From the NCBI GenBank assembly GCA_947631985.1, contig CANRNK010000010.1, forward strand, positions 1-35,055: a stretch of DNA of 35,055 nucleotides. The letters are read 5' to 3'. Below the pieces are notes generated by a model. The model ran no database searches and had not been told where the DNA came from. It saw only the letters and a list, made by a program, of their open reading frames with translations. Both the position numbers and the translations under genes were made by a program. Of this stretch, positions 29,907 through 33,736 are shown one piece after another. The stretch comes from an uncultured Lachnospiraceae bacterium (lineage in GTDB: Bacteria; Bacillota; Clostridia; Lachnospirales; Lachnospiraceae). Position 1 is the stretch's first letter; the number at the start of each line of letters is the position of its first letter.

Positions 29907-30911
29907 TCAGGCAAAATCCGACTCTGCACTGATTGTATTTCTGCCCTTTTCTTTTGATTGATATAAAAGCCTGTCAACTCTTAGGTACAAACTGTCTTTA
30001 TCTTCTGCATTTTTTGTAAACAACGCCCCAATTGATATGGTCGCATTGACTTCTAATTCAGCGTGTAACGACTTGGTGAACAGTTCATTCAAAGAAAGAA
30101 TCTTGGTATAAAAACCCTCTGCCGATTCAGGGTTGATTTTACCAGTTACAGCAAATTCATCTCCACCAAGCCTAAACACTCTATCTTCGTCTCTAAAAAC
30201 TGACTTCAGCCACTTTCCAGTTTCTTTTAAGATTTCATCTCCTACCTGATGTCCATACGTATCATTAATCGTTTTAAAGTTATCAAGGTCAATAAATAAA
30301 ATAAAAAAAGACTCTGGATTAGCCACAATTGTTTCAAGCGTACTATTCCACGAACTTCTATTAAGCAATTTTGTAAGCGGGTCCGTCTCAATTAATCTTA
30401 TCATTTTTTCTCTGCTAATCACGATATTTACCAATACATCATTCACCAGCATAAACGATTCCACAAAGTCTTTCACTTCCTGGTTCACAAGACGTTTCGG
30501 AAAAATCAAAATAACATGTATTTTTTCGTCTTTATCTACATGAATACTTGATACTGTGACAGGATAGCACATAATCGTAAATTCTTCATGTAATGCATCA
30601 TAAACTGTCAATCCCTGTGACGTTGCAAGTGTATCAATCCCATTCATAATACATCGATACATTTTATTCTCTTTATCCAGATTTGTAAGAATAATTCCTT
30701 TATAAAACATCATGGAATAAAGGCACCCTGTGCACCCGATGATAATATCATTTAACTTTTCCAAATCAATGTTTCGGTCAAAATGGACCAGCTTTAATAA
30801 TTCAAAGCTTTGCTGTGATTCTGCAAGCTTCCTTGATAAAATACGATTCTCTTCTAGCACGATATCTTTTATGTTCTCTGGTGAATCCTTGTACTTTTCA
30901 AAATCATTCAT
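29907..30911 (-). CDS. Diguanylate cyclase with N-terminal sensor domain
   Basis: A 334-residue soluble protein. The first ~160 residues have a short coiled coil (NIKDIVLEENRILSRKLAES) and a GAF-like domain (IIIGCTGCLYSMMFYKG). A complete GGDEF domain follows (DPLTKLLNRSSW, FIDLDNFKTINDTYGHQVGD, RLGGDEFAV). The product-inhibition site RxxD (RDED) lies five residues before GGDEF, so it should be an active, feedback-controlled c-di-GMP synthase. It is the first gene of the gdpP operon, 17 bp before gdpP, which puts c-di-GMP synthesis and c-di-AMP breakdown on one transcript. AGGGG precedes the ATG. A TGGGTTAACCCA palindrome lies in the leader. Confidence 0.93.
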   Translation of the reverse strand: MNDFEKYKDSPENIKDIVLEENRILSRKLAESQQSFELLKLVHFDRNIDLEKLNDIIIGCTGCLYSMMFYKGIILTNLDKENKMYRCIMNGIDTLATSQGLTVYDALHEEFTIMCYPVTVSSIHVDKDEKIHVILIFPKRLVNQEVKDFVESFMLVNDVLVNIVISREKMIRLIETDPLTKLLNRSSWNSTLETIVANPESFFILFIDLDNFKTINDTYGHQVGDEILKETGKWLKSVFRDEDRVFRLGGDEFAVTGKINPESAEGFYTKILSLNELFTKSLHAELEVNATISIGALFTKNAEDKDSLYLRVDRLLYQSKEKGRNTISAESDFA

Positions 30912-30997: not shown

Positions 30998-31026
30998 ATT
31001 ATATCATATCCTTCTCTAAACTTCAA
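30998..31026 (-). promoter_or_regulatory. Promoter of GGDEF-gdpP-rplI-dnaB operon
   Basis: Minus-strand TTGAAG, 17-bp spacer, TATAAT, about 85 bp upstream of the first ATG. The -35 box ends 4 bp from the direct repeat flanking the insertion sequence. Confidence 0.75.
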
Positions 31027-31030
31027 TTTC

Positions 31031-31055
31031 GTAAAAAAGAAAAACACCCGAGATT
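31031..31055. repeat. Left 25-bp direct repeat (target duplication)
   Basis: The 25 bases starting GTAAAAAAGAAAAACACCCG are identical to 32215-32239 and abut the left end of the insertion sequence. They are a duplicate of one arm of the HD-GYP gene terminator. Confidence 0.88.
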
Positions 31056-31096
31056 TGTAGGGTTACAATTGATGTGACACCTACAACTATACAATA

Positions 31097-31163
31097 ACGG
31101 TTGAGTCCTATAGAATGTTAATCACCACAAAAAACAATTCTATAAAAAAGGAACATCAACCGT
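31097..31163 (+). promoter_or_regulatory. Foldback structure over transposase start
   Basis: Two nested perfect 8-bp inverted repeats: ACGGTTGA/TCAACCGT and, inside, TATAGAAT/ATTCTATA. The ribosome site AAGGA lies in the internal loop and the ATG one base after the outer arm. It could limit transposase translation. Confidence 0.6.
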
Positions 31164-31164
31164 C

Positions 31165-32118
31165 ATGAATACAATAACACATTCACAACGATATCTGCCA
31201 CATGATTCTTCTACAAGATTCCATGCTGTTAAATTATATCGCACAGGCGTAGGCCTTTCTTTCGTAACTCGAAGATATCATATATCGAAATCTTCACTAC
31301 TGCGTTGGAACAAAAAATTTGATGGTTCAAAAGATTCTCTGCTGGATAAATCGCATCGCCCTATTACGCAGCATCCGAATGCTCATACAGAAGAAGAACT
31401 TCAATGGATTAAGAATTATCATCGTAGAAATCCGCACATCTCTGTATGTGAACTTTATGGAAAGCTTCGTTCCGAAAGAGGGTACTTGCGTCATCCTGGC
31501 TCTTTATATCGTGTTTACTGCAGATTGGGTTATACCAGTAAAGCTCCTTCTACTAAAAAAATCCGAAAACCAAAACCTTACGACACCCCTACTGAATTAG
31601 GTGTAAAATGGCAGTTGGATGTTAAATACGTTCCAAATGCTTGTTATTCCGGCACTGTCACACAGAAGTTCTATCAGTATACTGTAATTGATGAGGCTTC
31701 TAGGGAACGTTTTTTGTACCCATATATGGAACAGAGTAGTTACTCAACCTGCGACTTTTTAAAACGCGCTATAATCTACTTTGGGTATAAACCAAAAATT
31801 CTTCAGACTGATAACGGTGCAGAGTTTACGCACATCCGCAAGACCAATAGGACACATCCTTTAGATGTTTTATGCGCAGAGCTAGAAATAAATCATAAGA
31901 GAATACGTCCAAGAACTCCTCAGCATAATGGAAAAGTAGAACGTAGTCATCGGAATGACCAGGAACGTTTTTATAATCACATGAAGTTTTATAGCTACCA
32001 AGATCTAATGATTCAAATGAAACGATATATGAATCGTTCCAATCGCATTCCAATGCAGGTACTCGGTTGGCAATCATCCCTGCAAAAACGATCATCGATT
32101 GAATTTCAATACAAATAA
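31165..32118 (+). CDS. DDE transposase, integrase (rve) type
   Basis: A 317-residue transposase. The N-terminal helix-turn-helix domain (KLYRTGVGLSFVTRRYHISKSSLLRWNKKF) is followed by an integrase core with the DDE residues in WQLDVKY, LQTDNGAEF and NGKVERSHR; 42 residues lie between the second Asp and the Glu. It resembles IS481/IS3 OrfB-type proteins found in many Lachnospiraceae. No frameshift is present, so it is probably functional. It is transcribed away from the GGDEF operon and toward the HD-GYP gene, whose bidirectional terminator can also end this transcript. A foldback over the start codon may keep expression low. Confidence 0.93.
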   Translation: MNTITHSQRYLPHDSSTRFHAVKLYRTGVGLSFVTRRYHISKSSLLRWNKKFDGSKDSLLDKSHRPITQHPNAHTEEELQWIKNYHRRNPHISVCELYGKLRSERGYLRHPGSLYRVYCRLGYTSKAPSTKKIRKPKPYDTPTELGVKWQLDVKYVPNACYSGTVTQKFYQYTVIDEASRERFLYPYMEQSSYSTCDFLKRAIIYFGYKPKILQTDNGAEFTHIRKTNRTHPLDVLCAELEINHKRIRPRTPQHNGKVERSHRNDQERFYNHMKFYSYQDLMIQMKRYMNRSNRIPMQVLGWQSSLQKRSSIEFQYK

Positions 32119-32214
32119 AAAAATGTAGCTTTCTATTTATTGATTAACATTTATAGTAACATACCAACCCTTTTATTTTTATAAAGTTGGTGTCACATCA
32201 TTGACTAATGTACA

Positions 32215-32239
32215 GTAAAAAAGAAAAACACCCGAGATT
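32215..32239. repeat. Right 25-bp direct repeat (target duplication)
   Basis: Identical to 31031-31055. This copy retains the neighbouring sequence needed for the HD-GYP terminator. Confidence 0.88.
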
Positions 32240-32267
32240 CATCTTATTTGATTGATCTCAGGCGTTT
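32217..32267. terminator. Terminator of HD-GYP gene
   Basis: Minus-strand AAACGCCTGAGAT pairs with ATCTCGGGTGTTT (13 pairs, two wobbles), followed by T5CT6. The 5' arm overlaps the stop codon of the HD-GYP gene. A T-rich tract on the other strand makes it usable by the transposase too. The insertion sequence went in beside its 3' arm and duplicated that arm. Confidence 0.88.
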
Positions 32268-33736
32268 CTTTTTACTTTAAGAAAGAGTTCTACAAGTTGG
32301 GGATCAAACTGCGTTCCACTGCAATCTTTAATTTCTTTTTCCGCTTCTTTGACTGATAATGCCGCTCTATAAGGTCTATCATTTGTCATAGCATCAAAAG
32401 TATCTACAATGGATAGTATTCTGCATTCAATCGGAATTTCTTCCCCTTGAATTCCCAGTGGATATCCATTGCCGTCCCACCTCTCGTGATGTTTCAGAAT
32501 CAGTGGTGCAATATCTCTGATTTCAGCAGCCTCCAGCGCTATTCTTTCTCCAATTGAGGTGTGTGTTCTCATCACCTTCCACTCAGCCTCATCCAATGCC
32601 GCTGGCTTTTTTAAAATCGCATCTGGTATTCCGATTTTACCTATGTCATGAAACTTCGTAAGCAAAACCAATCGATCCATCTGATCCTGGTGAAGTTTTA
32701 GTTCTTTTCCCAAAATAATAGCAAGATATTCCATTCTGGAAACATGTCCTTCCGATACAAAGTCTTTTACTTCAAGCGCCTTCATAAACGCTTTTACAAA
32801 AGTGCTTCTTATACTCTCTTTTTTCAAAAGCTTATTTTGGTACATGTTGTTATCAGCTTCCTGAAAAATAAATTCTGTATTTACAAATCCTTTCTTGTGG
32901 AACGCATATCCCCATGCGAGAGAAAGCCCTCTGTTCCCTGCATACTTATTATGTTCTTCAACTTTTTCACTTAAGCACTCTAGCAATATCTCAATTTTCT
33001 TTGGACTGGTATTTTCGATAAAAACACCAAACTCATCTCCACCAATTCTTGCAACCAGGCCATGTTTTTCAAAGACTTCTCTGACTATTTCAGCCACTTC
33101 GATAATCATAATATCTCCATTAAAATGGCCCAACGTGTCATTAATAAATTTTAGTCCATTGATGTCCACCGATACAATCGCGATATTTTCATGATACCGA
33201 TTAACATATCTCTCCATTTTTTCTTCAAAGCTTCGACGACTCTGCAATCCAGTCAGTGCATCGCGCTCGACTAGATATCGAAGTTTTTTTTCAAGCAATA
33301 TCCTCTCTGTCATATTCCTAAGAATAATCAGTATTTCTCCAGATGTTGCCCTCTGAAATCTGGCTTCAAGATAGTAGGTTTTGTCTTCTATCTCTGTCTG
33401 AATTTCTTTTGAAAGAAAAGAATGTAGACCCGAAACTTCTTTTGCCATTTCAGTAAGTGAGTTAATCAGTTCTTCCTTTTCCATTACCAGACCAGAAAAT
33501 GAATCCTTTTTGTTTTCTGGAGAAACAAGCCGTATCCCACCATCCTGATCACATGTAAGCAGAATATCAGGAATTGCTGCAATCAGCGCCTTGTTGTGTG
33601 CAACTGCTCTTTCTAATATGATTACTTTTTCCTGTAGTTCCGGATAGTAATTTTTTCGAAAAGAATCCTCTCCCAACCCAATGATAGAATCTCTGGAAAA
33701 AGATTTCTTATCCTTTCTTTCGTAAAATCTCTCCAT
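32258..33736 (-). CDS. PAS-GGDEF-HD-GYP cyclic-di-GMP signalling protein
   Basis: A 492-residue soluble protein. The N-terminal coiled coil (about residues 30-50) and a PAS domain (about 50-145, ending RNMTERILLEKKL) are followed by GGDEF (about 150-300; RIGGDEFGVF intact, but no RxxD five residues upstream) and HD-GYP (about 310-490; FHDIGKIG, HHERWDGNGYP). Family knowledge: HD-GYP domains hydrolyse c-di-GMP; with an intact GGDEF it could be bifunctional, or the GGDEF could be a GTP-binding activator. The start overlaps the upstream alcohol dehydrogenase-like gene by 29 bp, implying coupling. The gene ends in a terminator next to an insertion sequence. Confidence 0.94.
   Translation of the reverse strand: MERFYERKDKKSFSRDSIIGLGEDSFRKNYYPELQEKVIILERAVAHNKALIAAIPDILLTCDQDGGIRLVSPENKKDSFSGLVMEKEELINSLTEMAKEVSGLHSFLSKEIQTEIEDKTYYLEARFQRATSGEILIILRNMTERILLEKKLRYLVERDALTGLQSRRSFEEKMERYVNRYHENIAIVSVDINGLKFINDTLGHFNGDIMIIEVAEIVREVFEKHGLVARIGGDEFGVFIENTSPKKIEILLECLSEKVEEHNKYAGNRGLSLAWGYAFHKKGFVNTEFIFQEADNNMYQNKLLKKESIRSTFVKAFMKALEVKDFVSEGHVSRMEYLAIILGKELKLHQDQMDRLVLLTKFHDIGKIGIPDAILKKPAALDEAEWKVMRTHTSIGERIALEAAEIRDIAPLILKHHERWDGNGYPLGIQGEEIPIECRILSIVDTFDAMTNDRPYRAALSVKEAEKEIKDCSGTQFDPQLVELFLKVKRNA

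Follow-up and report, generated by a model that had tools for sequence, protein, structure and literature searches.

The analyses reported here make it very probable that an insertion sequence (IS) of the IS481 type, belonging to a distinct clade, is directed to the stretch of DNA just upstream of sigma-A promoters. The promoters are predicted and the evidence for targeting is comparative throughout; the outcome would provide a concrete target rule for ISs with very long duplications, for which a target had been sought among the long-duplication members of IS1202 and none found (PMC10132070). The rule suggests why the duplication is so long (the upstream flank of the promoter would be restored), would bring another, unrelated kind of transposase into the small group of bacterial elements with a known preference for sigma-A promoters, is sharp enough for bench testing, and may serve as a means of marking promoters in uncultured genomes.

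The inserted element and its family

Within the window (the whole stretch of DNA analysed, 35,055 nt from an uncultured Lachnospiraceae bacterium), exact copies of the 25-mer GTAAAAAAGAAAAACACCCGAGATT lie at 31031–31055 and 32215–32239 and abut both tips of an intact IS of 1159 bp (31056–32214, plus strand), which is delimited by these duplications and organised like its relatives. An exact 25-bp repeat at both tips is far too unlikely to be explained by chance, and the first-pass annotation of the window is borne out in its reading of a genuine insertion that duplicated exactly 25 bp of target. The ends are 26-nt imperfect inverted repeats, TGTAGGGTTACAATTGATGTGACACC on the left (31056–31081, plus strand) and TGTACATTAGTCAATGATGTGACACC on the right (32189–32214, minus strand). 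The left repeat contains a −10-like TACAAT (31064–31069) and the right repeat an outward-facing −35-like TTGACT (32201–32206). TACAAT also stands in the left-end consensus, where the end-finding pattern itself contained this hexamer, and it was confirmed independently in ends defined by duplications; element right ends carry TTGACA or TTTACA. No further copy of the window element was found in its own genome (a 233-contig draft assembly) or in the genus.

The sole ORF of the element (31165–32118, plus strand) is intact and encodes a 317 aa transposase of the DDE type (Pfam rve, 1.6e-16), in which two helical (HTH-like) regions at the N-terminus are followed by an RNase H core, with D152, D216 and E259 (invariant alignment columns) as the candidate catalytic residues. 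Its best NCBIfam family by far is IS481 (NF033577; 181 bits, below the cut-off of 224), in line with the earlier description of the transposase as IS481/IS3-like, and the IS481 model is matched by all 16 of the aligned clade members. Against NF033594 (ISNCY/IS1202-group) the protein scores 23.6 bits for a cut-off of 250, which leaves it outside that group. The predicted structure (mean pLDDT 78) finds its best fold matches in IstA of IS21 and in retroviral integrases. In a tree of 25 rows, few of them reference rows, the 25-bp-duplication clade forms one supported group, placed with the IS481 rows and away from the IS1202-like group; a supported branch unites the clade with four of the five IS481 rows, and the IS1202-like set is a separate supported group. 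The element is of the IS481 type, in a clade distinct from IS1202.

The window element shares with the IS481 family a single ORF, an integrase-type DDE transposase (~300 aa in that family), TGT...ACA ends and a length of about 1 kb (~1.1 kb in that family), but the IS481 duplications in ISfinder, according to PMC10045372, span 2–15 bp and are mostly 6 bp, a range that the clade, with its 24–26 bp, exceeds. With the IS1202 family it shares the long duplication (16–28 bp in one subgroup, 25 bp here and 24–26 bp in relatives) and the glutamine seven residues past the catalytic glutamate (Q266 of the window protein, by alignment), a residue that is absent from some distant members. Most IS1202 members are, however, larger (394–507 aa and 1327–1747 bp, compared with 317 aa and 1159 bp; PMC10132070). 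Thus, where the first-pass annotation had hinted at IS1202, the duplication length does fit that family, whereas by its transposase the element sides with IS481 and stands apart from the IS1202-like set. The IS481EU elements of parabasalids likewise combine an IS481-like transposase with duplications of ~4, 15 or 25 bp; they differ in having eukaryotic hosts and in mixing duplication lengths within one family, and the portion of PMC10045372 consulted, from which these traits are taken, has no mention of promoter targeting by them.

A scan of genome contigs for relatives gave 80 loci. Wherever both ends and both flanks were resolved and a duplication was found, the latter measures 24–26 bp and differs in sequence each time, and this holds down to ~40% protein identity; an additional locus (L147) has another 25-bp duplication, and some elements, e.g. 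L046, have intact ends and no matching duplication. The first-pass annotation had proposed duplication lengths in other copies as a check on its reading, and by this comparison long duplications characterise the clade as a whole. Many weaker relatives (in the L038–L059 range) were excluded, since their ends were not recognisable, and the plasmid and phage collections yielded only distant relatives of the window transposase, few of them with usable ends. In L038, L041 and L076 (~53% identity), where ends and duplication could not be recognised, a common TACTTCCCC-GGGGAAGT palindrome lies 3' of the transposase ORF.

Duplications and sigma-A promoters in the IS481-type clade

On the minus strand, the order at the window's target site is duplication-GAAA-TTGAAG-N17-TATAAT, i.e. 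4 nt (a spacing that was checked) separate the left copy of the duplication (31031–31055) from the −35 box, downstream of it, of a putative sigma-A promoter (30998–31026, minus strand; consensus scan). This promoter has TG before the −10 box and fires away from the element, and an ORF of 334 aa (29907–30911, minus strand; GGDEF-like by eye) starts 86 nt beyond it. On the other side of the element, an upstream ORF from the ORF list (32258–33736, minus strand) has an intrinsic-terminator-like hairpin (32280–32215 on the minus strand; −25.4 kcal/mol, z = −7.4) whose 5' arm contains the stop codon. The right copy of the duplication (32215–32239) doubles as the 3' arm and T-tract of this hairpin, so that the terminator of the upstream gene remains intact; the first-pass annotation had claimed both that the duplicated target is the 3' arm of an intrinsic terminator and that the host terminator survives, and folding agrees on the two points. 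As far as the predicted features go, the terminator and the flank of the promoter are both whole after the insertion. Since the terminator of the upstream gene directly precedes the promoter that serves the following gene, the 25 bp in front of this promoter happen to be a terminator arm.

An empty site had also been proposed as a check. The orthologous place in two sister species (i.e. in other species rather than in sister strains) has no element and, upstream of the promoter, a single terminator hairpin of different sequence, and the window promoter is conserved nearly letter for letter in both. Considering that the hairpins at this intergenic place in the sister species (L088:2962-3190 and L089:2950-3170) are quite different in sequence while the promoter stays conserved, the terminator at this site seems to be replaced more quickly than the promoter.

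In the flanks of 23 target sites of the clade with both ends resolved, a predicted sigma-A promoter that points away from the element recurs, its −35 box starting 4 nt beyond one boundary of the duplication and 28–31 nt from the element tip. The score used was a simple promoter consensus with hand-set weights, not fitted to the target sites; its mean over the 23 sites has a maximum of 7.93 exactly at an offset of 4 nt (~4–5.8 elsewhere), and 19 of the sites lie above the 99th percentile of a null taken from the same flanks. The rule was first seen in these 23 sites and was therefore tested on elements outside the discovery set, where 26 of 34 left flanks have their best promoter within 90 nt starting 28–31 nt from the tip. 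In a pooled, non-redundant set that contains the 23 discovery sites (the hold-out does not), both flanks are available for 43 elements, and the best promoter within 90 nt is found at 28–31 nt in 34 (29 left, 5 right; binomial p ~3e-38) and elsewhere in nine. A score of at least 7 at this distance is reached by 51 of 72 elements, compared with 3.1% at random offsets; L006 has no convincing promoter at 28–31 nt. When aligned, the targets read TTGA(C/A)A-N17-TRTGnTATAAT, with a spacer of 17 in 45/51, and the TRTGn element emerges although it is absent from the score. Additionally, an ORF of at least 60 aa starts downstream in the direction of the promoter at 41 of 49 sites, compared with 23 of 49 when the opposite direction is taken.

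Five canonical IS481 plasmid loci and one integrase locus gave no statistical control, L210 being the only one with clear ends (and a 6-bp duplication), and for this reason an element of genome G621 with a 6-bp duplication served as the control: the promoter register is absent from all five of its copies. These copies (L189, L192, L198, L201 and L204) represent a multicopy element of 3.0 kb with a distant NF033594 match, mostly 6-bp duplications and space for passenger genes.

IS1202-like elements

The sigma-A promoter rule, read here too from predicted promoters, extends to NF033594-like elements. Those found with NF033594 (ISNCY) come from Clostridia, from elsewhere in the phylum and from one Paenibacillus plasmid, and their relatives on plasmids bear the annotation ISNCY or ISEsa1 family. 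Their ends were located through comparison of copies and a search for repeats; the duplications measure 16–18 bp, apart from five copies in one genome (G1280) with 26–28 bp. Whichever size the duplication has, the −35 box of the best promoter adjoins it within 1 nt in 35 of 36 copies, a count in which L183 was taken as a match (exact repeat only 12 bp, promoter 17 nt from the tip) and L243, where the abutting promoter ranks second, is the single miss. The −35 box of the IS1202-like elements is at offset 0 from the duplication, in contrast to offset 4 in the IS481-type clade. While the promoter spacer varies (16, 17 or 18), the −35 box is still found at a distance of 16–18. Since two supported and separate groups of the tree obey the rule, promoter targeting would appear to be present in two branches. 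A text search of the literature, subscription papers aside, retrieved no paper that describes IS481 or IS1202 elements as targeting promoters.

In L213 (1385-1437), and also in L221, L223, L230 and L259, the end motif of the IS1202-like element is repeated ~27 nt inside the tip, as if there were two transposase-binding sites per end.

Proposed mechanism and competing explanations

We suggest that the transposase is guided by promoter-bound RNA polymerase holoenzyme, possibly through sigma region 4 or the C-terminal domains of the alpha subunits. The two strand attacks would fall ~25 bp apart, with the near cut 4 bp and the far cut ~29 bp upstream of the −35 hexamer, i.e. at roughly −40 and −65, the region of UP elements. 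The duplication would then copy the upstream flank of the promoter, such that the native flank is retained and the host gene is expected to remain expressed. Given that the −10 box and TRTGn are conserved as well, recognition of the whole promoter is favoured, and we infer guidance by the promoter-bound holoenzyme rather than by DNA reading alone. More tentatively, and with somewhat less than an even chance in our estimation, the IS481-like clade and the long-duplication IS1202-type elements may both be delivered to promoters through a transpososome that touches the RNA polymerase holoenzyme, with the duplication lengths (16–18 and 24–28 bp, steps of about one helical turn) set by the seat of the transpososome just upstream of the polymerase.

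Other elements offer a precedent: sigma-A promoters have TnGBS, ISLre2 and certain ISKra4 members inserted upstream of them (TnGBS and related ISs at 15–17 bp from the −35 box), and contact with RNA polymerase has been proposed for them (PMC3942029). The window clade resembles these systems in its fixed distance upstream of sigma-A promoters, but the distance itself differs (28–31 nt, compared with 15–17 bp upstream of −35), and so does the enzyme, theirs being Mutator-like transposases and the window protein an unrelated one with an integrase core (rve).

Alternatively, the transposase itself might read promoter DNA, e.g. the −35 hexamer, with RNA polymerase playing no part. Direct recognition of this kind predicts the same pattern as polymerase contact; moreover, the register of the IS1202-like copies is anchored to the −35 box despite the varying spacers, and, with TTGACA or TTTACA in the right ends of the elements, a hexamer of this kind may be something that the protein binds already. 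However, a reader of the −35 box has no need of the −10 box and TRTGn, which lie ~20 nt and more further out and are nevertheless conserved, and we consider direct reading rather unlikely.

The first-pass annotation had surmised a terminator-seeking element and had proposed examining whether target sites are terminators. A transposase recognising terminator hairpins or U-tract DNA would suit the window target, which is a terminator 3' arm, and hairpins occur at the site in L021 and L025 too; yet few of the 23 targets overlap a hairpin (4/23, compared with 25/318 control windows, in a scan that used loops of 3–12 and missed the window's own hairpin), several are plain AT-rich DNA without a terminator, and what recurs instead, at ~20 of the 23 sites, is a sigma-A promoter at a fixed offset, which makes terminator seeking highly improbable. 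It is likewise hard to credit that insertion is wide and that the survivors are the harmless intergenic ones, often upstream of promoters: intergenic insertions are generally better tolerated, but tolerance predicts broad distances, neither a register of 28–31 nt nor the exact abutment seen in IS1202-like copies, and the register is missing in the 6-bp-duplication relative. A preference for AT-rich or curved DNA (e.g. UP elements), with promoters as a by-product, has very little in its favour, for the 25-bp targets are indeed 71% A+T, but GC-richer ones (e.g. L021, L028 and L029) retain the promoter register, and composition is unable to fix an offset that is precise to a nucleotide.

Returning to the element that we envisage as guided by the polymerase, we suggest that transposition may proceed via a circle, because a −35-like hexamer in the right end and a −10-like one in the left end both lie 8 nt from their tips. 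If the tips were joined, these hexamers could give a promoter whose spacer would be 16 nt and whatever bases the junction adds, and which would act as a strong promoter for the transposase. Finally, in L020, L021 and L025 a GC-rich inverted repeat lies between the transposase stop codon and the right end, and is possibly a terminator of the element's own.
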